Positions 3,001-15,417 of a stretch of DNA of 15,417 nucleotides are shown here, one piece after another. The position numbers and the translations under genes were made by a program. Within the stretch, counting starts at the first letter, position 1. Each line of letters opens with the position of its first letter. Origin of the DNA: Kiritimatiellota bacterium (GTDB lineage: Bacteria > Verrucomicrobiota > Kiritimatiellia > JAAZAB01); the NCBI GenBank assembly GCA_008636095.1, contig VSJD01000322.1, forward strand, positions 1-15,417, in the 5' to 3' direction. The notes beneath the pieces are model-generated. The model searched no databases and had not been told where the DNA came from. It saw nothing but the letters and a program-made list of their open reading frames with translations.

Positions 3001-5633
3001 GAGGGCGTAATTATGTTGATTTCCCAAGTATCGTCCATGCCGTCTCCATCCGTATCGGCATGGGTGGGATCGGTGCCGCGACGAAATTCATCCAAGTCGT
3101 CGCCCCCACTCACGCTCATATCGGCGTCGGTATCCCAATCGCTTTCAGTTTGGATAATCTCACGCGTATCACAGGGCGAAATGCGCACCCATGACAAGTT
3201 GGCGCTATTGGTCACTCCGGCGGTGTAGGAACTGGCCGAGCGCCAATACCAGAAATAATATTCCCAGCCATCCGTCATGTCGTCGCCATCCGTGTCGGGA
3301 TCTTTGGGATCCGTCATGGGATCATCGCCATATTGCGAGGCATAGACCAGACTTGCCGGTGTGTTGGTCAGGTAGTAGCCATCCAGGCCGCGGCACTCCA
3401 GGAAATTATTGAAAGGCACACCACTCCCGTATCCCAATACGCCAACGGGGAATAAGCCACCGGACCCGGTGACGGGGGACTGGCCGAGTGTCAGCAGGCG
3501 GGTACGGAGCAAGGGATAGCCAGGAATCTCGTCCTGACCGGAATAGGAAACGAGATTGGTGACAACCAGGGCGGACCATGGCGGGATCATGCTGGCGCTG
3601 GGAATGAAATCGTCATCATAGTTTCCTGAAGCGCCATCATTTCCCTTATTAGACTCCGGATTAAGTCCGTTGGCCACTTCCCACTCATCCGGCAGGCCAT
3701 CGCCATCCATATCGCCGACATTGTCGTTCGTGTTCCAAGCACAGCTGAAATAGAGCTGAATCTCCCGGTCAGCATTCATTGTAACGACAATTGGATTTTG
3801 ATGCGCGCCCGCTCCGCCAATATCACCCGACCATTTATAGAAATAATTTACGGAAGCCGTGTTTGTGGCTGGAATCCCTGAGATCGTGATTTCCGGACTG
3901 GTGGCGGTGCTGAAATACCAGGATTCATTGCCATCGAATGCGCCTGCGTTTGTAGGCGAAACGGAGAATGACCCAGACCCCAAACCGGCCAGATTCGTGT
4001 CCGCCAATGTCATCACATGCACCGTCAAGCGCCAGCCGGTTCCATATATTCCCTCAAAGGTCGTGGTCAGCAATGAACTGTTGGTTTTGGTCACGATGTA
4101 CGGAGTCGGTAAGTCATACCCCGCGGTCTGTAAAAATTCGATGGTATAAACCCCCACCGGCGCATTCGTCAGCGTTGCGTTGTTCGTCCCGCTCAACGCA
4201 CTGCTGGTATAATTGGTATAATCCGATGGCCATAAGGTAAAGGCCCACGATCCGCTCGCGGGGGTAACGTTAACCTGGATGACGCCTGTCGACCGGGCAT
4301 AAGTCCCCGTCAGGTTATTCACCGCGGGACTGGCATTGACGATATTGGTGGATTGGGGACTATCCGAAGTAAGCGTGTAGCCGGCCAGGGTCGGGAATAT
4401 CACCGAATAATTACCGGTCGGGATGGAGGCTACCGTATAGGTATTGGGCGTGGCGCCGGGAAACGTATTGGTAAAGGTTGTGCCGTAGCTGACGGCATTG
4501 GTAAATTCATCCGGACGACCATATGCAGGTATATTCCAGATCACGTTCGTCGTGGTCGTGATCCCGGTAATCGTAACCGCCAGGCTGTTGGAATATGGAA
4601 TATAAGTATTGGTAAGGGTTAGATCGCCGAAGAAATTATCCAAATTCGTCGAAGCTAAAAATTTATAACCGCGCACCGCGTTATAACTGACCGTGTAATC
4701 ATTCGATACGGCCAAAGTCTTGACATAATTATTGCTATACGGTCCTTGCAACCCAAAAGCGGTACTATCCACCCACCATCGAGCTGTTGGCCGGACATCC
4801 GATGGGACAGTTGTCGGTTTAAACTGAACGGTTAAAGTACTGGAAGTAGTAGAAAGCACATAGGTCCCGGTAATGCTATTGGTCAGCGGACTGGCCCCGG
4901 TGATATTAGTAGTCACCGGGGCAGGCGCAGTCCAGCCGGCCACGGCCGGAAACGTCACCGTATACTGGCCGGTCGGAATTGGCGTGAGATCGTAATTATT
5001 AGTATATGACGACGCTTGATAGGCGCTCGAATTGATCCACTCGGAGGGGCCCGCCACACTCCATAAAACGGGCGAGGTGGGCCCCGCAATCGTCACCGAA
5101 AGAGTGTTGGAGTATGGCCAATACAGGTTGGTATTCCAGCTGTCGGCAGTGAGGTAAAGACTCGTGGAGGTGGGAACATAATAATTTGTCATCGTAAGAA
5201 AATTAATAACATAATAGTCGGGACCGTCCGTAGGCACATTTTGTCCGGTGATGTTTGTCGTTAATCCGATACCTATCCCCCACCGCGCATTATTTTGAAT
5301 AAGAGCATGTCGCGTAAGATAATCTATTCCACCCGGATAATCACTTCCCGGATAATTAGTCGCTACATCCAGAATATATACATTGGTAAATGTAGCTTGC
5401 GCAAAGGCAACGCGTGGAATGAACGTCAGGAGCAGGAAAGCCCCCAGGAGCGCACAGAACTTACCCTTCTTCGCCAGAAAGCCCTGTGGCAAGCCACAGG
5501 AAGGAATGGCGTTCTTGGCTTCGCAGGGTTCCGCAAAGACTCGACCTGCGTAGCCAGTGCTACTCCGGCAGAGCAGGTTGCCCCGCGGCTTGCCGCGGGG
5601 TGCTTCATTAGACTTGACCAATTTAGAGTTCAT
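1..5633 (-). CDS. Giant secreted protein with Asp-rich (TSP3-like) repeats and a LamG domain, C-terminus beyond window
   Basis: The minus-strand frame starting at ATG 5633 stays open to the left edge (at least 1877 codons), and the frame was confirmed at several points. Residues 55-78 form a signal peptide: KKGK, a hydrophobic stretch from about 60 to 73, then AFA before QA. Residues about 170-520 hold three or four Thr/Asn/Tyr-rich beta repeats resembling PEGA or carboxypeptidase-regulatory-like domains (shared ending PTGxYxVxFP..AGY). About 535-630 resembles a bacterial InlB-type repeat. From about 640 to 1580 there are roughly nine acidic motifs of the form DxDGDGxxDxWE (for example at 641-652 and 860-871), like thrombospondin type 3 calcium-binding repeats. 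Residues about 1600-1795 form a LamG/concanavalin-like domain (FSVEAWVRP, WTHLAGVFDG, IDEVRVWDR). Likely role: extracellular carbohydrate or surface binding with calcium-rigidified spacers (inference). No Shine-Dalgarno is visible before the ATG. Residues 9-54 look inserted. Any C-terminal anchor or sorting signal is outside the window. Confidence 0.9.
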   Translation of the reverse strand, partial: MNSKLVKSNEAPRGKPRGNLLCRSSTGYAGRVFAEPCEAKNAIPSCGLPQGFLAKKGKFCALLGAFLLLTFIPRVAFAQATFTNVYILDVATNYPGSDYPGGIDYLTRHALIQNNARWGIGIGLTTNITGQNVPTDGPDYYVINFLTMTNYYVPTSTSLYLTADSWNTNLYWPYSNTLSVTIAGPTSPVLWSVAGPSEWINSSAYQASSYTNNYDLTPIPTGQYTVTFPAVAGWTAPAPVTTNITGASPLTNSITGTYVLSTTSSTLTVQFKPTTVPSDVRPTARWWVDSTAFGLQGPYSNNYVKTLAVSNDYTVSYNAVRGYKFLASTNLDNFFGDLTLTNTYIPYSNSLAVTITGITTTTNVIWNIPAYGRPDEFTNAVSYGTTFTNTFPGATPNTYTVASIPTGNYSVIFPTLAGYTLTSDSPQSTNIVNASPAVNNLTGTYARSTGVIQVNVTPASGSWAFTLWPSDYTNYTSSALSGTNNATLTNAPVGVYTIEFLQTAGYDLPTPYIVTKTNSSLLTTTFEGIYGTGWRLTVHVMTLADTNLAGLGSGSFSVSPTNAGAFDGNESWYFSTATSPEITISGIPATNTASVNYFYKWSGDIGGAGAHQNPIVVTMNADREIQLYFSCAWNTNDNVGDMDGDGLPDEWEVANGLNPESNKGNDGASGNYDDDFIPSASMIPPWSALVVTNLVSYSGQDEIPGYPLLRTRLLTLGQSPVTGSGGLFPVGVLGYGSGVPFNNFLECRGLDGYYLTNTPASLVYASQYGDDPMTDPKDPDTDGDDMTDGWEYYFWYWRSASSYTAGVTNSANLSWVRISPCDTREIIQTESDWDTDADMSVSGGDDLDEFRRGTDPTHADTDGDGMDDTWEINIITPSAVSNALDSANWDKNPDGDYYATVSTLFVLTNTMVGTAFTNTVSYSGVATNPGGAWVNIYTNTGTNVFDLYRDTILKATVALTNYQTGGTYTNNTVYYGTNTGLNAFQQGYPVWVDMNGNAQYDAGVDIAIINPPIKHDAVYRMAPAIPNPGVCSFDPRTAWTNVFPDLFGVIHAAPNTAPYNNYQEYLGGDYLGRVVWDAGGRVISLNDTESALTRNSYTLPNNQDTDADLIPDGWELYTGLDPNNIADAAGDSDSDSLNNFSEWANATHPLGSCIADWPNKPWPTDPGVITAPSPNDPHPRDTDWDGLVDGWDQTTFTEGSSSSAIGVGEYASRSNPTDADTDRLGPFSEGLPDGWEVYAGTDPLVRDANLDSDHDGLLNWQEYWTGTVPEWMDCDPAWGMKFLARRYMDWNTPWIEPPTADRYTTFGSAEDVDTRWFMPPDFMTCPSFLYANGAVTNLAWLRSTNGFPAASSLTCRNYHTTLAGTTNLLGTDVDPTDSDGDGMDDFWEVFHCLNPIRGYRDLVYGGWNMDKYSQYMIIGSTDADTTQAGYQVGTQGSPFTSVSELAAYYKNLRALATNDEKAASVMALVGPHNFGLVGMDPDGDGLPNFEEYTYYRQSHLHTSPSPLWRTDPYAGGVYSFVARNYTRDNTPEAQGWNTSGFSQFAGITYSYDRGSVPFRWAAMTEGFDTDNDMIGDYDEVTGYRQATNSVAGTDPLDNESPLHNRVLWLDGTNSWLRSYAWSHYGDFSKFSVEAWVRPARLSSAVDQVVVEKTSLYTVQLKDGTFTSSALANFQLGISASGVPYVLFHDVSGYTTHRALASSIGGQLQVGTWTHLAGVFDGANLTVYVNGEASATHHTTDVPARGIEGNYDVWHPNCNLSVGARELSPGWMFPGAPEKFFAGCIDEVRVWDRVLTAGDIRARKDRRLTPAEVGTVLGGNNPYTQGANNLFAYYRFTDLPDPQVDGKAPSEFPTNRPALSVNYSLVYTNYLVIAPDRV
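5472..5609 (-). repeat. Palindromic insert in the N-terminus of the giant protein
   Basis: This block separates the first eight residues from the signal-peptide core. It is bounded by two perfect hairpins with two-base loops: CCCCGCGGC/GCCGCGGGG at 5581-5600 and CCTGTGGC/GCCACAGG at 5482-5499. The encoded peptide, about 46 residues rich in Arg, Gly, Pro and Cys, resembles nothing in the rest of the protein. Its length is a multiple of three and it has no stop in the gene's frame. It is interpreted as an inserted repeat element rather than native sequence. Confidence 0.6.
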
Positions 5634-6185: not shown

Positions 6186-7163
6186 TCACACCTTCCCGCC
6201 TTCGGGCATCAAGCGACCTTGAGCACGCAGGCTCTTTAATTCGGCAATGATTCGCCGCCAATATAGCCGATCTGCCGCTTGGTACTTGGCCATACACGCC
6301 TGCATCTCTCGTTCGACTCTTTGCTCCAGACCCGGCCCCGGTTCTTCCCCGTTTATAATCTTTGAACCAAATGCCCGGATGCCTGCCATGCCACGTCCCT
6401 GGCAGGTCGCCACCCAAGGTTGCTGTTGGATCAATTCAGTCAACAAAGCCGGTGAAAATATGTTTTGCACGGCCCAGCGCGCCAACCCGAACATTTCACG
6501 AGTAATGTGCAATGTTCGCCCTGCGGGCTTCGACGTGAACGACTTACGTCGTTCGTGCTCAGGGTTAACCTTGAGCAAGGCGCTCTCGCGCCGCGCCGAA
6601 ACTTTGGTCGCATCATGTTGCGGCCAAAGCGGATACTTCACGGGCGATCTTAAACCGTGAAATATCCGGGCCAATCGGTGGCTGGGTTTCAGGTCCGACC
6701 TGTTCATCAGCGCCAAAACTAATCGGCTGATAACCGCATAATCCTCCAGGCGTTGGGTCTTTTTCAGTTCCACCAGGTCCGGCACGCTGACCACCGGCAC
6801 CATGCCCCAAGGCGTTCGAATCAATGTTGATCGGCGCCAGGCCACGTTAAACGCGGGTGATCGGGGCGGAACTCCCATGACATCCAGATACCAATCGGTC
6901 CCATCTTCCGCCGGTAAGGTAAAATGGAATCCATGCCGTTTTCTAAGGTAAGACAGGGTCAGCGGCGGGGTCAGCTTGTAATACTGGGCACGGAGCGTCC
7001 GCAAAGCTTTGACAAAACGTTGCAGGTTGGCATGTTGCGGACAAAGCCAGATATCCAGGTCTTCAGAAAACGTGGCGGCGCCATAGAGCACCGTGGCCTG
7101 GCCGCTGATGAGCAGATAGCGGACCTTATCCGCCTTCAATTGCCGGAAAAAGTTTCTGATCAT
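6186..7163 (-). CDS. Nucleotidyltransferase-fold protein (AbiEii / MNT-like)
   Basis: 325 residues from ATG 7163 to TGA at 6186. The N-terminus carries the pattern of minimal or AbiEii-type nucleotidyltransferases: a beta strand with LISGQATVLYG (18-28), then TFSEDLDIWL (31-40), giving candidate metal-binding acids D35 and D37. A later WYLDVMG (91-97) could supply a third acid. Families with this fold transfer a nucleotide to RNA, protein or small molecules and often act in toxin-antitoxin modules; which applies here is not visible. The start overlaps the upstream small gene by 38 bases and has no clear ribosome-binding site, which suggests translational coupling. Residues about 184-221 look like an inserted palindromic element. 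The C-terminal third (222-325) is helical and basic and was not recognised. Fold call fairly sure, function unsure. Confidence 0.75.
   Translation of the reverse strand: MIRNFFRQLKADKVRYLLISGQATVLYGAATFSEDLDIWLCPQHANLQRFVKALRTLRAQYYKLTPPLTLSYLRKRHGFHFTLPAEDGTDWYLDVMGVPPRSPAFNVAWRRSTLIRTPWGMVPVVSVPDLVELKKTQRLEDYAVISRLVLALMNRSDLKPSHRLARIFHGLRSPVKYPLWPQHDATKVSARRESALLKVNPEHERRKSFTSKPAGRTLHITREMFGLARWAVQNIFSPALLTELIQQQPWVATCQGRGMAGIRAFGSKIINGEEPGPGLEQRVEREMQACMAKYQAADRLYWRRIIAELKSLRAQGRLMPEGGKV
6501..6614 (-). repeat. Palindromic element inserted in frame in the nucleotidyltransferase gene
   Basis: This stretch contains several close palindromes: GCCCTGCGGGC near 6519, ACGACTTACGTCGT near 6539, and GGCGCTCTCGCGCC near 6580. 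It encodes a basic peptide including VNPEHERRKS and SKPAGRTLH, unlike the flanking helical sequence. It reads through without a stop. The mode of insertion recalls Rickettsia palindromic elements, which also persist inside genes in frame, but no homology to those is claimed. Confidence 0.55.
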
Positions 7164-7350: not shown

Positions 7351-7428
7351 ACTGAAAAACCGATTATAAACAAAGATGTTTTATCCGCAGATTACAGACA
7401 AACGCGCCATTGATTCAGGAATAAAACA

Positions 7429-7566
7429 TTGCCCGCGAACCACGCGAAAGGAACGCGAACAGGATCTCTTTTGAGTTTTACATGCATAGATTAAAATACA
7501 CTGAAAAGCGATTCAAATGATCCCAAAAATCATATTTCGCGTTCCTTTCGCGTGGTTCGCGGGCAA
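7429..7566. repeat. Perfect 31-bp inverted repeat around a 76-bp AT-rich centre
   Basis: The arms at 7429-7459 and 7536-7566 are exact reverse complements over 31 bases. They are built from the words GCGAACCACGCG and AAGGAACGCGAA. The centre is AT-rich and has no coding capacity. The unit ends 29 bases past the stop codon of the helicase gene, so its transcript could form a very stable stem that acts as a terminator or 3'-end protector. It could equally be a non-autonomous repeat element. No target-site duplication is visible. Confidence 0.8.
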
Positions 7567-7595
7567 ATATCTGTTCTTCAACTGCTTTTCACCGC

Positions 7596-10163
7596 CTAAC
7601 TGATTACTTCCAGAATCTCCACCGGGCATTCGGGGATGGCCGCCAGGAAGAACCGGCCATACCACTTGCTCACAATCCGCGCATCCAGGATCGCAATGAT
7701 GCCCTCATCCGTGCCGGTCCGGATAAGCCGCCCCACGCCCTGCCGGAATTTAAGAATCGCTTCCGGCAGGGAATATTCCTTGAATGGATCGCCGCCCTGG
7801 GCCTTGATCCGTTCCATGCGGGCCTTGATCACGGGCTCGTCGGGCACGGCGAACGGCAGGCGCACGATGATCACGTTGCTCAACGCCTCACCGCGCACGT
7901 CCACGCCCATCCAGAAACTGTCCAGCCCGAACAGGACGGCGGAATTTTCGATTTTTCCGCCAGAGGCGGACCCGCCTTCGGCGGGCGATTGCCGATTTTC
8001 GATTTCGGAACCGTCCGTTTTTAGACATTCGGTCCGGCGGATGCCGGATTGGTCGTTGGGCGTTTGCTCTTCTTCATTCCCTCCGGCGTCTGGCGTCCGG
8101 CGTCCGGCGTCCGCCTTATCATTCGCCCGTCGAAACCGGTCCAGCATTACGTGCCGGGAAAGCCCTGTTCCCTGCACCAGGGGAATAATGCCCTCCGCTT
8201 CAAAAAAAGGTTCCAAGTCCCGCGCCACAGACTTCATCATCTCGGCGTTGGTGAACAGCGCGAAGGCCCGGCCTTGTGATTTTTTCACAAAATAACGGAT
8301 AGCCTGGGAAGCCGCGGCGGTAAAGGCTTGTTTGTCGTTGGGATCGGGCATGTCGCCGGCAATATAAACCCGCATCTGGCGCGTATAATTAAACGGCGAG
8401 CCCACGACCAGCTCCCGGCACCGCGTGGCACCGATTCTTTGCCTGAAGTAGGCTAACGATGCACCGTTAGCCGTTCTTGGTTCTTCGCCTGCCCCGCCGT
8501 AGCGGCTTCGCGTAGAGGGGTTCTTCGTTCTTCGTTCACTGATCGCTGTTTTATGATTTTGTCCACTGACCTCTGTTTCCTGATTTTGTTCACTGATCTC
8601 TGACCTCTGTTCTCTGACCTCTGTTTTTCGTCCGCCCTTCACGGCGAGCGTCGCCGAGGTCAGGATCACGGAGGGATAGGCTTCAAACAGTTTTTTTTCG
8701 AGGATCGGCGCTACTGCGATCGGCGCGGAATACAGCACCCACTGCCGGCGGCGCGCCCCTTCGCATGCCACCCAATAGACATGGTTCTCGGCCGTCTGCT
8801 TTAGAAACATATCCAGCGCGGCGCACATATCCAGTCCGCGCCGGACAACGGCGGTCAATTCGGCCTGAAGATCGGCATCTTGCATGGCTTCGGCCAGGCG
8901 CTTGACCGCTCGCGCAATTTTTTCCTGGCGGGCCCCCAGGAGCGTTGCAAACACCAGCGGCGCGCGGACAATGCGCCGGGTGTCCTTCGCCTCCAGGTGC
9001 GCCCACTGTTTGACTTCCAGGAAGAAATGCTCGACGTCCTCCCACATCCGGGATGCCTCGTGGGCGATCTCGCTTTCCTTCAATACCGCCAGCAGGCCCT
9101 TGCCGGTCTCGGGGGTATAGAGGCGTCGAAGCCAGTGCTCGAAGGCGCCCTGGGAAAGCCTCAGTCCCAAATGCTCGCTGGCCGTATCTTCCAGGCAATG
9201 GGCCTCGTCCAGCACGAGGGTATCGAAGGCCGGCAGGAGCCCCTTGCCGTTTTCGCGCAAGGCCAGGTCGGAAAAGAACAGGTGGTGATTGAGTACCAGC
9301 AGGTCGGCCTCAAAGGCCCGGGCGCGGGCCTTCATCAGAAAACAGCGCACGTAATGCGGGCACTTGCGCGCCAGGCAGTTGTCGTGTTCCGAGCAAACCT
9401 GGCTCCAGATTTCGGGCATGCCCTTGGCCTGCCCGAAATTGCTGATTGCTGATTTTTGATTGCTGATTTCTGACCCGCCTGCAGCGCTATGCGCAGCATT
9501 GCGGGCAGGTTGCTGACCTCCCTGCTTCGCCAAGGCTTCCCCCTTCGCTTCAGAAGCTACGGAGGACACGTCGCAGGGCAGGCTGACCTCTGACCTCTGA
9601 TCTCTGATCTCTGGGACCCAGTCGGCCAGACTGCCATCCTGGGTTTCATCGGCCCAGCGGCGCAAGCGCGCGAGTTCGCGTTCCTGGGCCTTATTAAAGA
9701 GATCGCCGCTGGTGTGGCGCGCGCGCTCCAGCCGACGCAGGCAAAGATAATTTGTACGGCCCTTGCACAGCGCGACCTTGAAATCCAGGCCCAGGTGATG
9801 CAAAAGAAAGGGCAGGTCCTTAAAGACCAATTGTTCCTGAAGGTTTATGGTATAGGTGGAGACGGCCACCGGACGCTGTTGTTCCTTGGCCAGCAGGATG
9901 AGCGGCACCAGGTAGGCAAAGGTTTTGCCGACACCCGTGCCGGCCTCCACCGCCAGGTGCTCCGGCTTGAGGATTGCCGCGGCTATCGTCTCGGCCATGG
10001 CCATTTGCTGGGGTCGGGCTTCGAACGCAAAGCCGTCGGCTTCCGCGGGGCCGGATTCGACCAAGCCGGACTTGGCCAATACTCCGTCAGCCTGAAAAAA
10101 AGCACGGACCTGCTCCGGAATCTGCGAGTGTTCATCCGCCATAGGATCCGGCTGCGCAATCAT
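7596..10163 (-). CDS. dinG: DinG/XPD-family iron-sulfur DNA helicase with three in-frame inserts
   Basis: A superfamily 2 ATP-dependent 5'-3' DNA helicase expected to act in repair of structured DNA or R-loops. ATG 10163 has AAGG eight bases upstream; GTG 10172 is an alternative in-frame start (residue numbers here count from 10172, 858 residues). Motifs in order: Walker A AGTGVGKT (77-84); first cluster cysteine C144 in GRTNYLC; C266, C271 and C277 with the spacing of the E. coli DinG cluster ligands; NHHLFF (295-300); DEAH (322-325); ILTSATL (503-509); SFWMGVD (752-758); and motif VI QGVGRLIRTG (811-820). All key motifs are intact. Three low-complexity blocks at residues about 188-247, 513-571 and 684-744 have no counterpart in the family and coincide with heptanucleotide and hairpin DNA. 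dinG is a family-level name; YoaA- or CshA-like paralogues cannot be excluded. Confidence 0.93.
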   Translation of the reverse strand: MIAQPDPMADEHSQIPEQVRAFFQADGVLAKSGLVESGPAEADGFAFEARPQQMAMAETIAAAILKPEHLAVEAGTGVGKTFAYLVPLILLAKEQQRPVAVSTYTINLQEQLVFKDLPFLLHHLGLDFKVALCKGRTNYLCLRRLERARHTSGDLFNKAQERELARLRRWADETQDGSLADWVPEIRDQRSEVSLPCDVSSVASEAKGEALAKQGGQQPARNAAHSAAGGSEISNQKSAISNFGQAKGMPEIWSQVCSEHDNCLARKCPHYVRCFLMKARARAFEADLLVLNHHLFFSDLALRENGKGLLPAFDTLVLDEAHCLEDTASEHLGLRLSQGAFEHWLRRLYTPETGKGLLAVLKESEIAHEASRMWEDVEHFFLEVKQWAHLEAKDTRRIVRAPLVFATLLGARQEKIARAVKRLAEAMQDADLQAELTAVVRRGLDMCAALDMFLKQTAENHVYWVACEGARRRQWVLYSAPIAVAPILEKKLFEAYPSVILTSATLAVKGGRKTEVREQRSEISEQNQETEVSGQNHKTAISERRTKNPSTRSRYGGAGEEPRTANGASLAYFRQRIGATRCRELVVGSPFNYTRQMRVYIAGDMPDPNDKQAFTAAASQAIRYFVKKSQGRAFALFTNAEMMKSVARDLEPFFEAEGIIPLVQGTGLSRHVMLDRFRRANDKADAGRRTPDAGGNEEEQTPNDQSGIRRTECLKTDGSEIENRQSPAEGGSASGGKIENSAVLFGLDSFWMGVDVRGEALSNVIIVRLPFAVPDEPVIKARMERIKAQGGDPFKEYSLPEAILKFRQGVGRLIRTGTDEGIIAILDARIVSKWYGRFFLAAIPECPVEILEVIS
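7941..8123 (-). repeat. Insert 3 in the helicase gene: heptamer and hairpin DNA
   Basis: The plus strand shows GGCGTCT followed by three GGCGTCC units at about 8088-8114. It also carries TCGAAAA-type words and two adjacent hairpins (CCGCC/GGCGG and CCCGCC/GGCGGG) near 7955-7985. The coding strand reads without stops as a polar peptide with TPDAGG and SEIENRQSP. It sits between the helix ending MLDRFRR and the strand AVLFGLDSFW, that is, in a loop of the second helicase domain. Confidence 0.75.
8460..8636 (-). repeat. Insert 2 in the helicase gene: heptamer array
   Basis: Degenerate units of seven bases run along the plus strand, including TGACCTC, TGTTCTC, TGATCTC and TGTTTCC, and further on repeated GAAGAAC-type words with a CGTAGCGGCTTCGCG palindromic block. 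The coding strand gives a heptad-like peptide (EVREQRS, EISEQNQ, ETEVSGQ). It follows directly after ILTSATLAVKGG and precedes SLAYFRQRIG. Confidence 0.8.
9432..9611 (-). repeat. Insert 1 in the helicase gene: heptamers flanking palindromes
   Basis: The two ends are heptamer arrays (GATTGCT/GATTTTT/GATTTCT at 9440-9470 and TGACCTC/TGATCTC at 9582-9610). Between them lie palindromic GC-rich blocks, including GCTGCGC/GCGCTGC-type stems near 9480-9510 and the word AGCTACGGAGGAC near 9555. The encoded peptide begins EIRDQRSEVS and ends SEISNQKSAISN. It lies between the first and second cluster cysteines, so it enlarges the iron-sulfur domain. Confidence 0.8.
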
Positions 10164-10207
10164 GGTAAGCACCTTGATTTTGATGTCTTCCGCAGAATCT
10201 GAAGATA

Positions 10208-10247
10208 GATCGGCAAGAATTCACCACGGAGGCACGGAAGCACGGAG
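10208..10247 (+). repeat. Left arm of the 40-bp inverted repeat
   Basis: Reverse complement of 10814-10853 with two mismatches. It contains CACCACGGAGGCACGG. It lies 36 bases upstream of the helicase GTG, so it also overlaps the likely helicase promoter or leader region. Confidence 0.85.
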
Positions 10248-10273
10248 GATAAAAACGGAAGAGGAGGTTCCAT

Positions 10274-10310
10274 CAAATCCAAGATTGACGGAGCGCCAAT
10301 CTCGGATTTG
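10274..10310. repeat. Imperfect hairpin 38 bases downstream of the GxxExxY stop
   Basis: A 14-base stem with one mismatch (CAAATCCAAGATTG against CAATCTCGGATTTG) around a nine-base loop. No U-tract follows on the minus strand, so an intrinsic terminator is only a weak possibility. It may instead be part of the surrounding repeat unit. Confidence 0.6.
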
Positions 10311-10347
10311 ACGGAATTGTCTGTATTGGGGAGAAAGCCGAGCGATT

Positions 10348-10719
10348 TCACAGCACCATCCGTTTAAGCCCCTGCTTGAGGGTCGACACATTGAAATTGA
10401 TTAACAGTCCAACCCGGCATTTGGTCAATTTCATATATGTTAATAGTTGTGCCTCATGAATCGCTTCCAGTTGAGCGACTGCTTTTAACTCCACCACAAC
10501 CTTATGTTGCACAACAAAATCAAGTCGCAGATCGTCTCCAACCCGCTCGCCTTTATAAATTAGTGGCAGACTCAGTTGGTTCTCAAAAGATATGTGCCTT
10601 AATCGCAATTCAACACACATGCTTCTCTCGTAGATTTCTTCGTATAGCCCAGGCCCCCAGTGCTTGTGAACCTCAATCGCCGCACCGATTATTTGTTCGG
10701 TCAGTTCTTCTTCGATCAT
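10348..10719 (-). CDS. GxxExxY family protein (PD-(D/E)XK nuclease-like fold)
   Basis: 123 residues from ATG 10719, preceded by AGGAGG (10730-10735) ten bases upstream. The diagnostic motif is present as G24-L-Y-E27-E-I-Y30. A nuclease-like core follows: D67 in LRLDFVV, then V-V-E77-L-K79, which matches the D...ExK pattern of PD-(D/E)XK enzymes. C-terminal INFNVSTLKQGLKR is also typical of the family. Biochemical function of the family is not established to my knowledge; a nucleic-acid-cleaving or binding role is inferred from the fold. Length is normal. The gene is alone between two inverted-repeat arms and hairpins, which suggests it travels as a unit. Expression probably depends on a promoter in or next to the right-hand hairpin region. 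Confidence 0.92.
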   Translation of the reverse strand: MIEEELTEQIIGAAIEVHKHWGPGLYEEIYERSMCVELRLRHISFENQLSLPLIYKGERVGDDLRLDFVVQHKVVVELKAVAQLEAIHEAQLLTYMKLTKCRVGLLINFNVSTLKQGLKRMVL

Positions 10720-10729
10720 GACAAATTAT

Positions 10730-10735
10730 CCTCCT
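10730..10735 (-). promoter_or_regulatory. Ribosome-binding site of the GxxExxY gene
   Basis: AGGAGG on the minus strand, ten bases before ATG 10719. It fixes the start of this gene. Confidence 0.7.
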
Positions 10736-10759
10736 CTCTTCCTTCTCCCATGACAAGTC

Positions 10760-10808
10760 ATTGCTTGAAATCAGATTTTGCGTTTAGCAAAACCTGATTT
10801 CAAGCAAT
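10760..10808. repeat. 22-bp hairpin upstream of the GxxExxY gene
   Basis: Left half 10760-10781 and right half 10787-10808 are reverse complements except for one position, with the five-base loop GTTTA. It lies 41 bases upstream of the start codon, inside the right arm of the outer inverted repeat. It could regulate the leader or be part of the mobile unit. Confidence 0.85.
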
Positions 10809-10813
10809 CTCTT

Positions 10814-10853
10814 CTCCGTGTTTCCGTGCCTCCGTGGTGAATTCTTTCCGATC
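10814..10853 (-). repeat. Right arm of the 40-bp inverted repeat
   Basis: Pairs with 10208-10247 (38 of 40). The right arm ends about 35 bases before the duplicated tRNA-Gly upstream block. Confidence 0.85.
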
Positions 10854-10887
10854 AACCCACAGATTTCCCCGTTCCGGTAAAGCCAAT

Positions 10888-10930
10888 AAAATATTACTTG
10901 CAAATAGCCGGTAATTCTGCCAAGAATATA
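10888..10930 (+). promoter_or_regulatory. Upstream block of the split tRNA-Gly copy
   Basis: A 43-base block that matches 11104-11146 at 34 of 43 positions without gaps and lies 17 bases before the tRNA. It includes TTGCAA and, 21 bases further, AATATA. These could be promoter elements, although the spacing is long for a sigma-70 promoter. Conservation shows that the tRNA was duplicated together with its promoter region. Confidence 0.45.
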
Positions 10931-10947
10931 GTCAGTTTTTCACTCAA

Positions 10948-11061
10948 GCGAGCGTAGCTCAGTGGTAGAGCTCTACCTTGCCAAGGTAGATGTCGAGCCC
11001 CGCCACGAGCGCGGGGTAAAGGTTCAAACCTGTCCCGCGTTTCGCGGGATCCCTTCGCTCG
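10948..11061 (+). pseudogene. tRNA-Gly(GCC) copy split by two hairpin inserts
   Basis: Bases 10948-10997 are identical to the 5' 50 bases of the intact tRNA at 11163, including the GCC anticodon loop. A 23-base hairpin insert (CCCCGC/GCGGGG stem, ending TAAA) then occupies 10998-11020. GGTTCAAA follows at 11021-11028. A second 21-base insert (TCCCGCG/CGCGGGA stem) fills 11029-11049, then TCCCTTCGCTCG. The acceptor ends in ACACA instead of CTCCA, so the last acceptor pair and the CCA are lost. Most likely a dead copy, unless the inserts are removed from the RNA. Confidence 0.7.
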
Positions 11062-11103
11062 ACACATGGTTATACGATAAATTTTTTGTTTTCTTAAAGG
11101 TAT

Positions 11104-11146
11104 AAAATATTTCTTGTAAACAGACGTTCGTTCTGACAAGGATATA
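11104..11146 (+). promoter_or_regulatory. Upstream block of the intact tRNA-Gly
   Basis: Second copy of the 43-base block (34 of 43 identical to 10888-10930), with TTGTAA and GATATA at the matching positions, 16 bases before the tRNA. Probable promoter region by conservation and position. Confidence 0.45.
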
Positions 11147-11162
11147 CATTTTTCTAAGTAAT

Positions 11163-11237
11163 GCGAGCGTAGCTCAGTGGTAGAGCTCTACCTTGCCAAG
11201 GTAGATGTCGAGGGTTCAAATCCCTTCGCTCGCTCCA
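11163..11237 (+). tRNA. tRNA-Gly(GCC)
   Basis: An intact 75-base cloverleaf. Acceptor GCGAGCG pairs perfectly with CGCTCGC, the discriminator is T and the CCA is encoded. The D arm carries AGTGGTAG. The anticodon arm is CTACC-TTGCCAA-GGTAG with anticodon GCC at 11195-11197. The T arm is GAGGG-TTCAAAT-CCCTT with one G-U pair. It decodes GGC and GGU glycine codons. Confidence 0.97.
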
Positions 11238-11242
11238 GTTTC

Positions 11243-11330
11243 CCTTGCCAAGGTAGATGTCGAGGTCCCGCCTCCGGCGGGATAAAGTTCAAACCTGTCC
11301 CGCGTTTCGCGGGATCCCTTCGCTCGCTCC
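11243..11330 (+). pseudogene. tRNA-Gly 3' fragment with hairpin inserts
   Basis: Starting five bases after the intact tRNA, the segment repeats the tRNA from the middle of the anticodon stem (CCTTGCCAAGGTAG) to the acceptor (CGCTCGCTCC). It is interrupted at the same two places as the copy at 10948. Insert one (11265-11286) has stem TCCCGCC/GGCGGGA and again ends TAAA. Insert two (11294-11314) is identical to that of the first copy. The 5' half is missing, so it cannot fold as a tRNA. Confidence 0.75.
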
Positions 11331-11367
11331 CTCCTTCGCGAAGCCGCTACGGAGGGCACGCCAGCCT
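11331..11367. repeat. Palindromic repeat between tRNA fragment and pgi stop
   Basis: CTCCTTCGCGAAGCCGCTAC followed by GGAGGG forms an imperfect palindrome. The words recur inside the helicase gene (CGTAGCGGCTTCGCG near 8501) and, more loosely, at 9555 and 15160, so it belongs to a dispersed repeat family in this genome. Confidence 0.5.
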
Positions 11368-11390
11368 TCACCTTCCGCCTTCAGCCTTTC
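11361..11390 (-). repeat. Heptamer array forming the pgi C-terminus and stop
   Basis: On the coding strand the sequence reads AAGGCTG, AAGGCGG, AAGGTGA, AGGCTGG, a degenerate seven-base repeat. The pgi TGA lies in the third unit. The related word AGCCTTCAGCCT recurs at about 13307-13318. Confidence 0.6.
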
Positions 11391-13017
11391 GATATTTCCT
11401 GATCAGCGCATTTGTTGACGAATCGTGCCGCAGTTCCGGCTCTGTCGTCGCAATCAATTCCGGCAGAATTTTACCGGCGAGTTCCTTGCCCAGTTGAACA
11501 CCCCACTGGTCAAACGAAAAAATATCCCAGATCACGCCTTGCGTAAAAATCTTGTGCTCGTAAAGCGCAATCAGCGCGCCCAGCACGGCGGGCGTTAATT
11601 CGTCCGCCAGGATCGTGTTGGTCGGCCGGTTACCCTCAAACACTTTGTGCCCAACGAGTTCAGACGGAGTCCCTTGCGCCGCCACCTCAGTGGCAGTCGC
11701 CACCTCGGCGGCCGTGCGCCCGAACGCCAGGGCTTCCGTCTGCGCAAAGCAATTCGCCATCAACTTGGCATGGTGATCTCCAACCGGATTATGCGACCGG
11801 CCAAATCCGATAAAATCCGCCGGAATCAGTTTGGTACCCTGATGAATCAACTGGTAAAAGGCATGCTGACCGTTGGTGCCCGGCTCGCCCCAGATAATCG
11901 GCCCGGTTTGCCAGCCAACCGTCCGCCCCTGCTGGTCTACCGATTTGCCGTTACTTTCCATGTCGGCCTGCTGGAGATAGGCGGCCAACCGGCAAAGGTA
12001 TTGATCGTAGGGCAGGATGGCGTAGGTTGCGGCCCCGAAGAAATTATTATACCAAATTCCCAGAAGCCCAAGGATCACGGGCATATTGCGCTCCAGCGGC
12101 GCCTGGGCAAAATGTCGGTCCATGGCATGAAACCCGTCCAGCATCGCCAGAAAATGTTCCGGTGAAATGGCCACCATCAGCGCCAATCCCACCGCCGAAC
12201 ACAGCGAATAGCGCCCCCCCACCCAATCCCAGAACTCGAACATGTTCTGCGGATCAATGCCGAAACGCGCGACTTCCTGCGCATTGGTGGATACCGCCAC
12301 GAAATGACGCGCCACGGCTTTTTCATCCTTCAGTGCCGCCAGGCACCAGGCCCGCGCGGTCTGTGCATTGGTCATGGTTTCCTGGGTGGTGAACGTTTTC
12401 GAGGTGACAATAAACAGCGTCTCCTCGGGGACCAGGTCGCGCGTAGCCTCCACGATGTGCGTGGCGTCAACATTGGAAACAAATCGCACGGTCAAATCCC
12501 GCTGGGAGTAAGCTTTCAACGCCTCATAGGCCATGGCCGGCCCCAGGTCCGACCCGCCGATGCCGATGTTAACGATCGCCCGGATGCGCTTTCCCGTATA
12601 TCCGCGCCATGCGCCGGACCGTACATCCCGCGCAAACGCCTGCATCTTGGCCAGCACGCGGTTGACCTCCGGCATGACGTCCACGCCCTTGACGTAAATC
12701 GGAGTATTGCCCCGGTTACGCAGGGCCACGTGCAGGACCGGTCGGTTTTCCGTGCGATTGATGGGTTGGCCCGTGAACATGGCCGTGCGCGCCGCTTCCA
12801 CCCCGCAGGCACGGGCCAACGCCGCCAACCGTTGCATTGTTTCTTCGGTCACGCGGTTCTTCGAGTAATCCAGCATCAGCCCTTCCGCTGAGAGCGTGAA
12901 GTGCTCCGCCCGGCGCGGATCGCGTGCAAAGAGCTCGCGCAGGTGTACCCCGCGCAGGTCATCATAATGCGCCGTCAGGGCTTTCCATTCCGGCAAATCA
13001 GTCAGACGTGATTTCAT
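11368..13017 (-). CDS. pgi: Glucose-6-phosphate isomerase
   Basis: 549 residues, the usual length for bacterial Pgi, converting glucose 6-phosphate and fructose 6-phosphate in the cytoplasm for glycolysis and gluconeogenesis. ATG 13017 follows AGGAGGGG (13025-13032) with seven bases of spacing. Visible family motifs: [12 protein letters not shown] (149-160), [14 protein letters not shown] (205-218) for phosphate binding, DWVGGRYS with R269, DMESNGK with catalytic base E354, [19 protein letters not shown] with ring-opening H385, and [13 protein letters not shown] with K511. These correspond to E357, H388, K518 and R272 of the animal enzyme. It appears complete and active. The last few residues (KAEGGR) and the stop codon come from a heptamer repeat. 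It is transcribed alone, divergently from the fusion gene. Confidence 0.98.
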
Positions 13018-13024
13018 AGGACTA

Positions 13025-13032
13025 CCCCTCCT
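13025..13032 (-). promoter_or_regulatory. Ribosome-binding site of pgi
   Basis: AGGAGGGG on the minus strand, seven bases before ATG 13017. It decides the start codon. Confidence 0.8.
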
Positions 13033-13106
13033 GCAAAGAATTGCCCACGTAACACGGATACTGAAGCACTATATCCGCAAAAGATGTCAAATGCAATCGT
13101 GACTAC

Positions 13107-13294
13107 TCAGGTGTTCGGTGTTCAGGGTTCGGGGTTCAGGGTTCGGGGTTCAGGTTGAAATCCAGTAATCCCGCTTAATTAAACGTGTCGCAACATTTTG
13201 TATTTCAATTGCTTGAGATAAACACGGCAGGGAAAAATGTTTGCATCGGCAACCTGATTCTTCCGGTTCCGAACACCGAACACTGAACACCTGA
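13107..13294. repeat. Inverted heptamer arrays in the pgi upstream region
   Basis: The left arm 13107-13132 and right arm 13269-13294 are reverse complements at 23 of 26 positions. On the left the heptamers continue (GTGTTCG, GTGTTCA, GGGTTCG, GGGTTCA and so on) to about 13154; on the right they read GAACACC, GAACACT, GAACACC. The nine-base word AATGCAATC occurs at 13090-13098 and again at 13294-13302, close to the outer ends. This resembles a small non-autonomous element, but an eight-base gap separates the left word from the arm. Confidence 0.6.
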
Positions 13295-13401
13295 ATGCAA
13301 TCAACAGCCTTCAGCCTGCTTTAAGGCTTTCCAAGCGCCGGCCCAATGGCCATACTGGCGGCGTGTTATTAACTCTTAACAACCTAACACTGACGGCCCG
13401 C

Positions 13402-15417
13402 ATGGCCGGTCATACATTGGCTTATTTCGGTCGCAGTCGCTGGCGCCGTTCCACAAGCCCCTTGCCCCGCAAGGCGGCCCAAGTCCCGACCGATTTCTTC
13501 GGCCTGTGCGTGGCCAACGCGCCGGATCCAGCGTGCGACGATTACGTCATCGCCCGTCTGAACGAGCTTGGCATCCGCCACGCGCGCCTAGATTTTACCT
13601 ATGGCGATCGTGATGCCTTTACCGAACGGTTCCTGGCCCGCCTGCTGACCGACCGGTTCCGCGTCTGCCTGCACCTGGTACAACCACGGGAAGAGGCCCA
13701 CACCATGCTTCGCCATCCGGAGGCCGCTGAACGCTGGCGGGCTTTTGTCGGCGATATGCTGGACCGGTATGGGAGCCGGGTAGAGCTGATCGAAATCGGC
13801 GCCACCTGCAACCGTCGTAAATGGTCGGGCTACTCACCCGCCGCTTTTTTCGTCGCCTGGCAAATCGCCTGGGAGGAAGCGCGCGGTCGCAACCTGGCAA
13901 TCGCCGGGCCGAACGTTACGGATTTCGAACCGGCCTATAACGCCGGCTGGCTGGGCGAATTTCGGCGCTCCAGAGTGTTGCCCAGCGTGCATACCGACAA
14001 CCTGTTTGTGGAGCGCGCCACGGAACCGGAGGCGTTCGATCACAAAATCGCCGGACAGCGTCTGGCCAGCCTGTTCCGCTTCAACCTGGTACGCAAGGCC
14101 CAGTTGCTCCAGGATATTGGCGCGTGGGCCGGCGTACCCACCCTGATGTGCGCGCACGTTACCTGGAGCCTGCGGCGGATTGCCCGCTTCCTGGAGGACG
14201 TCGAGGAAAAACAGGCGGATTACCTGGGGCGTTATGCCTGCCTGGCCGCCGCCTCCGGCGCGCTCACCCGCGTCTATTGGGGTCCATTGATTGGACAACG
14301 TGAAGGCTTGATTGACGACGGCACCTTGGAATACCCCGAACTTCCGCACGTGACCTATTATGAACAGGCGCGCGGCGAGATAAAAGATTACCGCTTGCGT
14401 CCAGCCTTTAGAACCTTTCAAACTGTTAATCGCCTGCTCGCCGGCGCCACGTTCCAGCGCCGTCTGGCAACCGATGCCGGCCTGGAAATACTGGAGTTCG
14501 TACTGAATGCAGAATGCCAGGCTCCGCCGGAGCGCTACGCCCAGGCGAGCAGAATGCAGAATGCAGAAGAAAAAAGTCAGAGGTCCGAGGTCAGCGGTCA
14601 GCGGTCAGCGATCAGTCAGAAGTTTGCCCCGCCTTTGGCGGGGTCAGCAATCAGCAATTCCGCCAACGCCGAATCAGGAATGAAGAACGAAGAACAAAGA
14701 ACCAGGAACGGAGCGATTCTGCACGCCGTCTGGACGACCGACGGCAACGGCGCCAGCGCCGACGCTTGTTATCCGCCGGAGCTCCTCGCCCAGGCCGAGA
14801 TCTATGCCCGCGACGGCCAGCGGCTGGAGCGCGCCCCCCGGATGTTCTCCGAAAGCCCGGTGTTTATTTTGTGGCCATCCGGCGTCTGTCATCCGTCGTC
14901 TGGCGTCTGTCTTCCAATCCCCGGCTACCGCTTTGCACATCGACCGGGCTGGGATTTTGATATCGTCCGCGTAGGAACCAATGCGCTGGGTCTGGGAGGC
15001 GTGTACTTGACCGGGGATGGTGGGGAACGCGTGGATATTCAGGCGCTGCTGGAACTGGCCGGCCATGGAAAGGCGGGGGGTGGGGAAGAAAAGCAAACGC
15101 CCAACGCCCAACATCCAACGCCGAACGCTCAATGTCGGATGCCGGACCCTGCTTCGCCCGGAGGCTACGCAGGGCAAGCGCCAGATGGCGAAATTCTTCA
15201 ATCGAAAATCGAAAATCGAAAATCGAAAATATTGCGCGATTCGCGCAATGTTGTCTGGTCCGTAAGCGCGCCGTGGGACATCGCGCGAACCATCGTGATC
15301 AAGGAATTTAAGCCGCGCAGCGTCTTCCGCCGGCTCCTGGACTATGGTAAACCCGACAAGGCCCTGCGCAGTTGGAACGGCGCGCAGGAACTGCTCCGGC
15401 GCGGCCTGCAAACCCCC
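13402..15417 (+). CDS. Glycoside-hydrolase-like barrel fused to an LPS (Kdo/WaaP-type) kinase domain, C-terminus beyond window
   Basis: The frame from ATG 13402 is open to the right edge (672 codons). GTG 13363 is a possible earlier start; neither has a clear ribosome-binding site, and no signal peptide is seen, so the protein is probably cytoplasmic. Residues about 31-360 look like a clan-A glycoside hydrolase barrel: FFGLCVANAPD, LNELGIRHARLDF, VELIEIGATCNRRKW (127-141), AGPNVTDFEP, RPAFRTFQTVNRLL. A beta-sandwich tail follows (ILHAVWTTDG ... SESPVFILW, about 439-491). From about 614, NVVWSVSAPWDIARTIVIKEFKP and a basic segment ending W-x(8)-LLRRGLQTP match the start of lipopolysaccharide kinases, with K634 as candidate ATP-binding lysine. 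Likely envelope-glycan related (inference). Three inserts at residues about 369-436, 493-505 and 557-612 are repeat-derived. Confidence 0.85.
   Translation, partial: MAGHTLAYFGRSRWRRSTSPLPRKAAQVPTDFFGLCVANAPDPACDDYVIARLNELGIRHARLDFTYGDRDAFTERFLARLLTDRFRVCLHLVQPREEAHTMLRHPEAAERWRAFVGDMLDRYGSRVELIEIGATCNRRKWSGYSPAAFFVAWQIAWEEARGRNLAIAGPNVTDFEPAYNAGWLGEFRRSRVLPSVHTDNLFVERATEPEAFDHKIAGQRLASLFRFNLVRKAQLLQDIGAWAGVPTLMCAHVTWSLRRIARFLEDVEEKQADYLGRYACLAAASGALTRVYWGPLIGQREGLIDDGTLEYPELPHVTYYEQARGEIKDYRLRPAFRTFQTVNRLLAGATFQRRLATDAGLEILEFVLNAECQAPPERYAQASRMQNAEEKSQRSEVSGQRSAISQKFAPPLAGSAISNSANAESGMKNEEQRTRNGAILHAVWTTDGNGASADACYPPELLAQAEIYARDGQRLERAPRMFSESPVFILWPSGVCHPSSGVCLPIPGYRFAHRPGWDFDIVRVGTNALGLGGVYLTGDGGERVDIQALLELAGHGKAGGGEEKQTPNAQHPTPNAQCRMPDPASPGGYAGQAPDGEILQSKIENRKSKILRDSRNVVWSVSAPWDIARTIVIKEFKPRSVFRRLLDYGKPDKALRSWNGAQELLRRGLQTP
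14507..14712 (+). repeat. Insert 1 in the fusion gene: heptamers and hairpins
   Basis: It contains a GCTCCGCCGGAGC palindrome (14521-14533), ATGCAGA-type repeats, GGTCAGC/GGTCAGC/GATCAGT units (about 14595-14615) and a CCCCGCC/GGCGGGG hairpin (14627-14643). Further on are TCAGCAA units and GAAGAAC/GAAGAAC/AAAGAAC/CAGGAAC units (14683-14710). The peptide includes RSEVSGQRSAISQK, very like the helicase inserts. It lies between the barrel and its beta-sandwich tail. Confidence 0.8.
14878..14920 (+). repeat. Insert 2 in the fusion gene: short GGCGTCT array
   Basis: Units GGCGTCT, GTCATCC, GTCGTCT, GGCGTCT and GTCTTCC run with period seven, giving the peptide SGVCHPSSGVCLP directly after the conserved-looking SPVFILW strand. 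The same GGCGTCT/GGCGTCC words occur in helicase insert 3. Confidence 0.65.
15070..15237 (+). repeat. Insert 3 in the fusion gene: heptamer arrays at the domain boundary
   Basis: CCAACGC, CCAACAT, CCAACGC, CGAACGC units (15106-15133) are followed by a palindromic block with GGAGGCTACGCAGGGC. Four TCGAAAA units follow (15201-15230). An ATTGCGCG/CGCGCAAT hairpin closes the block at about 15230-15248. It separates the hydrolase-like part from the kinase-like part. Confidence 0.8.

Follow-up and report, generated by a model that had tools for sequence, protein, structure and literature searches.

Why do two unrelated genes on one contig of a Kiritimatiellota bacterium carry tandem arrays of degenerate seven-base repeats within their reading frames? 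The stretch analysed here (the window) comprises positions 1 to 15,417 of contig VSJD01000322.1 from assembly GCA_008636095.1 (contig C237 of genome G000 in our collection; 3.81 Mb, 357 contigs, 87% complete). A sequence-only reading of this DNA had proposed that heptamer arrays entered, in frame, a helicase gene and a second gene, which was regarded as a fusion. The explanation that we favour, with belief and doubt in balance, is that the arrays within genes are for the most part solo ends, or end copies, of elements carrying a PF05635 four-helix-bundle gene, and that together with short modules resembling repetitive extragenic palindromes (REPs) they pile up in disordered linkers of the host proteins.

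The arrays themselves are real. Defining a lag-7 run as at least 17 matches in 21, we found seven such runs in the window and none in any of 200 dinucleotide shuffles, and Tandem Repeats Finder (TRF) recovered the heptamer families named in the sequence-only reading. The window gave no runs at lags 4-6 and 8-13 and seven at lag 14. Eleven period-7 arrays lie in frame within the genes of a DinG-type helicase and an InaA-kinase-like protein, and both open reading frames (ORFs) stay open across their inserts (Table 1). For the genome as a whole, we took 20 contigs at even steps (238 kb) and counted each TRF call with a period of 7, 14, 21 or 28 as an array. The autocorrelation check proposed with the sequence-only reading, run on a sample of the genome, showed that lag 7 exceeds all other lags (20 runs), followed by lag 14 (12) and lag 18 (7). 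In the 238 kb, TRF called 30 arrays, about 0.4% of the sequence. By a crude rule (ORFs of at least 150 amino acids, which span 87% of the sample), 25 of these 30 lie outside ORFs, so that the helicase and InaA-like genes, with 11 arrays between them, are unusually loaded. An inverted partner within 800 bp was found for 10 of the 25 intergenic arrays (null 1.4%) but for none of the five intragenic ones; in-gene arrays are single forms. The sequence TCTGACCTCTGACCTC, with at most one mismatch, occurs 59 + 64 times in the genome and 0 times in the reversed control. Per 100 kb, array density was 12.6 in the bacterium's own genome, 11.6 in the same genus and 4.2 in the same family, and 20 stretches from other families of the class held two period-7 arrays in 319 kb. 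Among the loci of helicase relatives, Ignavibacteria included, we counted 29 lag-7 runs in 1.25 Mb and at most 14 at any lag that is not a multiple of 7.

Aligning the host proteins with relatives, a check that the sequence-only reading had called for, mapped three inserts in each gene, with approximate borders. For the helicase, 120 homologues were listed and 21 were aligned with the window protein. Sixteen of the listed homologues are at least 70% identical; the alignment took in 14 of them (P0002-P0014, P0024) and left aside two partial sequences. Here, we found an insert of 24-85 residues at the same place in 13 of 13 close relatives covering site 1, one of 28-70 residues at site 2 in 14 of 14, and one of 28-69 residues at site 3 in 11 of 14, the other three being reduced to AEIGN or AKIGN. 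In 12 full-length helicases including that of the window (66 pairs), mean identity was 87% in the core and 30% in the inserts, and residue autocorrelation at lag 7 was 0.20 in the inserts versus 0.06 in the core. Four distant relatives (54-57% identity) carried inserts of at least 16 residues in 3, 4 and 3 cases at sites 1, 2 and 3, and no inserts were present at the three sites in any of the three aligned outgroups. In the AlphaFold2 model of the window helicase (mean predicted local distance difference test score, pLDDT, 69; residue numbers follow the 855-aa form P0001), three long stretches below 50 coincide with the inserts, and seven shorter ones comprise 3-10 residues. The nearest named helicase relative among the best 80 of 146 loci, a set that possibly leaves out very close genomes, is Kiritimatiellae bacterium STD1_155 (75-78% identity).

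For the InaA-like protein, an alignment of 23 sequences showed, by eye, shared sites with differing content. Pfam gave no match in the portion inside the window; the protein has full-length relatives, some of which are labelled lipopolysaccharide kinase InaA family by their sources, and the term fusion gene is therefore corrected. The inserts also differ from their first description in that they are composites of arrays and short palindromic modules: past its GCAGAAT array, InaA-like insert 1 continues with GTCAGCG, TCAGCAA and GAAGAAC arrays and a CCCCGCC-GGCGGGG palindrome. Identical peptides at identical sites in homologues had been named as an observation that would speak against insertion. 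The sites are indeed shared, the content mostly differs, and partial sharing is seen in the nearest relatives: P0013 shares much of helicase site 2 and a palindromic stretch of site 1, and P0122 shares part of the insert content of the InaA-like protein, as descent predicts. Thus, insert sites persist while their content turns over. Since the sites are the same and core and insert identity diverge so strongly, the helicase linkers appear to have been entered before the species diverged, and their content to have been rewritten later from a shared heptamer alphabet.

A possible source of these arrays is found elsewhere in the genome. PF05635 (S23p/IVP, Avd-like four-helix-bundle proteins) gave 12 hits, 10 of them above the curated cut-off, and inverted heptamer arrays enclose nine of the 12 genes (flank-pair scores 40-89, spans 439-603 bp), the remaining three (L155 and two sub-cut-off hits) scoring 18-22. 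The nine flanked elements use eight heptamer families (GAGGTCA twice, GACGACG, GTTCGGT, TTTCGAT, ATGGTTA, GAACATC, ATCCGAA and TTCCAAG). They thus combine, at nine of 12 loci, two properties of the rRNA intervening sequence (IVS), a PF05635 protein and terminal inverted repeats, which describe the elements and not the in-gene arrays; the third, a location within 23S rRNA, was lacking at L154, the flanked locus searched, where Rfam at a permissive threshold gave no rRNA match. PF05635 is present in 100 of 145 genomes of the phylum. When we scored the flanks of the best match in each of 30 genomes, 20 loci reached an inverted-flank score of at least 30, compared with 3 of 120 mismatched pairs, and 10 reached at least 40, compared with 2 of 120; this control peaked at 185, which means that some fetched loci share long sequence. 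The best arm period was 7 at 21 of these loci, 8 at seven and 4 at one, and one arm was too short. In 28 readable loci out of 40, protein identity tracked same-strand heptamer similarity (Mantel r 0.33, 0 of 5000 permutations as high) but not opposite-strand similarity (r 0.03), so that the heptamer seems to be inherited as part of the element.

Short copies of such elements are dispersed over the genome. One of them lies between genes in the window; C59 has a 95% identical copy of 168 bp of it, and C213 a comparable stretch at 79% identity. Its ends match the L154 arms at 33/35 and 22/24 bases, and these ends are all that it shares with L154. On seven further contigs (C298, C271, C295, C249, C252, C8 and C186), GAACACC pairs about 165-215 bp apart hold, by eye, portions of both ends of the L154 gene, the middle being absent. 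Being non-autonomous copies that have their ends and, as judged by eye, some of their interior in common with a coding element, these resemble miniature inverted-repeat transposable elements (MITEs). We then compared 12 in-gene arrays of the window with both arms of each flanked element (18 arms from nine elements) and with random controls. It can be seen from Table 1 that several in-gene arrays agree closely with an arm, and five of the 12 score above the highest random control.

The course of events behind our favoured explanation, that in-gene arrays stem mainly from element ends, would be as follows. Elements with a four-helix-bundle gene, bounded by inverted heptamer arrays proper to each lineage, would spread between genes together with internally deleted MITE-like copies and would decay to short forms and single ends. 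Solo arrays and 33-bp REP-like modules would land in coding sequence as well, where they would persist if the linker is disordered and tolerated, if no stop occurs in the reading orientation, if the whole insert is in frame and if the peptide is mostly hydrophilic. Existing arrays may become tolerated landing sites for further modules, so that the site stays while its content turns over. What the sequences themselves establish is the structures and their dispersal, conserved sites whose content diverges, and the exact nesting of one module. The scenario implies that the elements moved, probably with a part played by the four-helix-bundle protein, that a Y1- or RAYT-type enzyme (REP-associated tyrosine transposase) would move the short modules, and that solo arrays would derive from element ends and not the reverse. 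PF05635 is reported to resemble Avd of diversity-generating retroelements (PMC10053308), an analogy that suggests a possible nucleic-acid-binding role.

Several findings weigh against this course of events. We saw no target duplication, excision product or movement; at the short copies, no target-site duplication was noticed by eye and no transposase with matching ends was identified, and our analysis showed no transposase function for PF05635. Arrays of the same heptamer are alike by nature, so that arm agreement is consistent with descent without proving it. Two arm matches (25/30 and 30/37) did not exceed the top-scoring random piece, in which arrays may also occur, and five GAAGAAC, TCAGCAA and GCAGAAT arrays had no match among the 18 arms of this 87% complete genome. 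Flanking arrays are absent at three of the 12 PF05635 genes, and a score of 30 is not reached by 10 of the 30 phylum loci. Ten other Kiritimatiellae with at least eight PF05635 genes held only two period-7 arrays in 165 kb, and element number alone thus fails to explain the proliferation; with none in 154 kb from ten genomes carrying 0-1 genes, we rejected a dependence of array density on PF05635 gene number outside the lineage. Neighbouring heptamers in the composites grade into each other, which fits slippage plus mutation too, and the 33-bp module is not unusually stable when folded as single-stranded DNA (z -0.97).

Local replication slippage, in which the 7-nt step favours growth of heptamers in place and permissive linkers merely tolerate them, could draw on this grading, on the dominance of lag 7 in the genome sample and on a survey passage according to which heptamers are the most abundant longer simple repeats in most genomes, with polymerase slippage as the proposed cause (PMC4679880). 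We consider it unlikely as the main source, because unrelated loci share modules that have a common non-repeat leader, AAGCAAAC, and end in a similar way, because arrays form inverted pairs around one gene family, because a 33-bp non-heptamer module is nested in arrays, and because the addition of one 7-nt unit within a gene breaks the frame. When we inspected seven further loci with the AAGCAAAC-plus-CAACATC module, it lay in a long open frame at three of them: internally in an FGAM synthase, and at the C-terminal end of both an MgsA-type ATPase and a hydrophobic protein without Pfam match. Arrays in frame within unrelated genes, as claimed by the sequence-only reading, are therefore found in the helicase, in the InaA-like gene and at three of these seven loci.

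The 33-bp module is dispersed and precisely nested. With at most two mismatches, its 22-bp core has 33 matches in the genome including the window versus 0 in the control. Seventeen loci were inspected. The module is inside heptamer arrays or borders them at five (L278, L286, L287, L288, L290), compared with an array share of about 0.4% of the sequence; at three it interrupts its own copy at the centre (L284, L293, L295), at three it interrupts another palindrome (L291, L292, L294), and the remaining loci show other surroundings; by eye, none of the 17 has a target duplication. With GTAG beside a short inverted repeat and many dispersed copies, the module resembles GTAG REPs, but the predicted single-strand fold pairs bases other than those of this repeat. 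Within helicase insert 2, the GAAGAAC array is divided by a second palindromic module of 33 nt, a length that preserves the reading frame; P0013 lacks the 11 residues encoded by this module. The genome holds four Y1_Tnp genes, at which a simple motif search gave scattered single motifs and no clear REP pair.

Three further candidates were rejected. Unusual single-strand folding of the modules found no support (five pieces, z -0.2 to -1.0), a tRNA-like copy alone standing out (z -4.2). A reverse transcriptase as agent was dismissed, as the genome has one RVT_1 gene, whose surrounding 2.5-kb locus contains neither arrays nor hairpin motifs. A loose palindrome motif (CTTCGC/CTCCGC ... GCTACG type) exceeded chance in the genome sample (14 versus a mean of 3.7 and a maximum of 9 in ten shuffles) but is no rarer in other families (17 in 319 kb) and is no lineage marker. 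Rfam at a permissive threshold returned the tRNA and sub-threshold matches alone.

Alternatively, the arrays may have come first, and four-helix-bundle elements entered, or became trapped between, pre-existing inverted arrays. The arrays (30 in 238 kb) exceed the four-helix-bundle genes (12 in the genome) and demonstrably host the 33-bp module. However, heptamer identity follows protein kinship with a fixed strand orientation, and other genomes with array-flanked four-helix-bundle genes hold few other arrays, which makes this order of events rather improbable.

The orientation of the arrays bears on what is retained in a gene. The in-gene arrays do lie in a stop-free orientation, as had been reported, but the explanation of this fixed orientation by selection against stops is not supported, since 69% of the heptamers are stop-free and GAAGAAC is stop-free on both strands, so that its fixed orientation requires another cause. 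The related claim that arrays can be read in every frame holds for the InaA-like inserts (0.36 alternative-frame stops per 100 codons versus 2.84 in the rest of that gene) but not for the helicase inserts (3.11 versus 2.63). ATGGTTA has stops on both strands, and both such L124 arrays in the sample are intergenic. Perfect dimers in the window and 40 contigs yielded 76 heptamers, and for an orientation test of 59 of them we searched six-residue words of the cyclic peptides in 238 homologous proteins, the two of the window being excluded; the hits overlap and come from related proteins and are not independent counts. The 34 families that are stop-free both ways gave 151 hits in the more hydrophilic orientation versus 11 in the opposite one, and the 24 families with one stop-free orientation gave 62 hits, with 5 in the reversed-protein control. 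This suggests that peptide character is filtered in addition to stop codons; the same pattern would result if the coding strand were biased towards purines.

The prevalence of the hydrophilic orientation, together with sites kept across 14 relatives, might also indicate that charged disordered inserts are selected for use, such as tuning of length or interaction. We regard this as very unlikely: insert identity is 30% against 87% in the core, site 3 is down to five residues in three of 14 relatives, the three aligned outgroup helicases have no inserts, and tolerance plus purging accounts for the same pattern. An assembly or binning artefact, for which the fragmentation and incompleteness of the assembly could be cited, has a negligible probability, because open frames with inserts at these same sites are also found in relatives, on separate contigs and from several sources (ncbi, jgi, ena, lgn).

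Table 1. Genes, inserts, arrays and modules of the window; for in-gene arrays compared with element arms, the last column gives the matching arm, the matching bases and the relation to random controls
Feature	Position	Strand	Basis or match
Long ORF	runs off window start
325-aa ORF			without Pfam match
DinG-type helicase gene (DEAD + Helicase_C_2), 858 aa, three inserts	7596..10172	-	ORF, Pfam, homologue alignment
PDDEXK_3 (GxxExxY) gene	within 10215-10840
Phosphoglucose isomerase	11368-13017
InaA-kinase-like protein gene, with array inserts	13363..15417, runs off window	+	ORF, relatives
Helicase insert 1: GAGGTCA array, palindromic modules, CAGCAAT array	9430..9620	-	TRF, alignment; pLDDT <50 at residues 186-249
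Helicase insert 2: GAGGTCA and GAAGAAC arrays	8456..8632	-	TRF, alignment; pLDDT <50 at residues 510-568
Helicase insert 3: GACGCCG array, palindromes, short ATCGAAA-type remnants	7938..8126	-	TRF, alignment; pLDDT <50 at residues 685-735
InaA-like insert 1: GCAGAAT array split by 33-bp module	14505..14722	+	TRF, homologue alignment
InaA-like insert 2: GGCGTCT/CGTCGTC array	14874..14922	+	TRF, arm comparison
InaA-like insert 3: AAGCAAAC leader and CAACGCC array, palindromic module, AATCGAA array	15084..15236	+
33-bp REP-like module, GTAG adjoining short inverted repeat	14517..14549	-	core matches
Intergenic MITE-like element, inverted GTTCGGG/CCGAACA arrays at ends	13098..13301	.	recurrence, arm match
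TCCGGCG array, helicase	8082-8113		TRF
GTTCTTC array, helicase	8520-8537		TRF
CTGACCT arrays, helicase	8593-8625 and 9583-9613		TRF
ATTGCTG array, helicase	9438-9473		TRF
GCAGAAT array, InaA-like gene	14549-14568		TRF
GTCAGCG array, InaA-like gene	14576-14615		TRF
TCAGCAA array, InaA-like gene	14644-14658		TRF
GAACGAA array, InaA-like gene	14678-14710		TRF
GGCGTCT array, InaA-like gene	14881-14909		TRF
AACGCCC array, InaA-like gene	15096-15132		TRF
AATCGAA array, InaA-like gene	15200-15230		TRF
Intergenic arrays	13107-13154 and 13269-13291
Array overlapping 3' end of isomerase ORF	11362-11388
In-gene array (AATCGAA)	15193-15234		arm of L156, 32/32 bases, above random
In-gene array (GAGGTCA)	9578-9620		arm of L152, 29/30 bases, above random
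In-gene array (GGCGTCT/CGTCGTC)	14874-14918		arm of L151, 29/31 bases, above random
In-gene array	14574-14622		arm of L153, 30/33 bases, above random
In-gene array	8545-8630		arm of L153, 28/31 bases, above random
In-gene array	8079-8119		arm of L151, 25/30 bases, below best random piece
In-gene array, with non-repeat leader	15084-15147		arm of L158, 30/37 bases, below best random piece

Other repeats were noticed along the way. Beside PF05635 genes, an arm period of 8 instead of 7 was seen at L175, L181, L187, L188, L190, L193 and L195, and at L158 (1151-1500) an arm and its neighbouring sequence stand, by eye, in about three tandem copies next to the four-helix-bundle gene. The PDDEXK_3 gene of the window is bracketed by inverted repeats of 52 bp that are based on CACGGAGG octamers and is possibly, with these repeats, a second element type. 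Inverted flanks of the GCCCGCGAA type are found at the PDDEXK_3 loci L164 and L166, and L165 scores weakly. By eye, these flanks resemble an inverted repeat at 7428-7570 of the window, CCCGCGAACCACGCGAAAGGAACGCGAA, with a geneless spacer of about 75 bp. An intact tRNA-Gly(GCC) has a tRNA-like copy on each side (10948-11075, 11163-11240, 11239-11335). The T arm of these copies carries short palindromes (CCCCGCC-GCGGGG or TCCCGCC-GGCGGGA, and TCCCGCG-CGCGGGA), and the first position is occupied by different palindromes in the two copies. Further short palindromic modules lie, by eye, inside other ORFs (5461-5605 and 6530-6565), including the N-terminal part of a long minus-strand ORF.

How do these elements and inserts relate to known systems? 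Rickettsia palindromic elements are selfish DNA retained inside unrelated proteins and consist of single long palindromes. The window likewise has putative selfish DNA within unrelated proteins; measured against this description, its units are heptamer arrays and a 33-bp module instead, with turnover at fixed sites. The following comparisons refer to the passages of the cited papers that describe each system. GTAG REPs, associated with RAYT, are dispersed GTAG-tagged palindromes that occur in the Planctomycetes-Verrucomicrobia-Chlamydiae group and inside O. terrae genes (PMC3733652, which also mentions the Rickettsia elements). The 33-bp modules are likewise short, GTAG-tagged and dispersed, but here they sit within heptamer arrays and within one another. 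The IVS of Coxiella burnetii is an S23p ORF within the 23S rRNA gene, with inverted repeats, excision by RNase III and tandem heptamers (GACAGAT) adjoining its ORF (PMC4990558). Our elements share with it the PF05635-type ORF, a size of some 430-600 bp and terminal inverted repeats; unlike it, they adjoin protein genes where looked at, their ends are whole heptamer arrays, and they are accompanied by shortened copies with deletions and by similar arrays within coding regions. Heptamer repeats of cyanobacteria, Xanthomonas and Beggiatoaceae are mostly intergenic and genome-wide (PMC4692102, PMC4679880), as are the present arrays, but those accounts deal mainly with one or few heptamers per genome, whereas here many families occur, with inverted pairs around a gene and composites in coding sequence. 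The fast-evolving tandem repeats of Borgs also create disordered protein regions, but their in-ORF units are divisible by three (PMC9879509), which the unit of seven is not.

The S23p element in Coxiella 23S rRNA, heptamer repeats, intragenic REPs and disordered Borg repeats are thus already known. In titles and abstract openings of the open-licence literature, we found no account of heptamer arrays ending PF05635 elements outside rRNA, nor of heptamer turnover in coding linkers. With some reserve, and leaning towards doubt, we propose that the elements might represent an undescribed mobile class with Avd-like genes, ends made of inverted arrays of a lineage-specific heptamer that the encoded protein recognises, solo arrays that colonise genes and keep rewriting linkers, and no classical transposase. 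The findings suggest a possible origin for part of the bacterial excess of seven-base repeats. They also suggest a role that can be tested for a widely distributed protein family, which has mainly been known from rRNA intervening sequences and for its relationship to Avd. The related genomes also provide a natural series in which disordered linkers are replaced while the enzyme core is kept, so that the birth of linkers from selfish DNA becomes directly observable.

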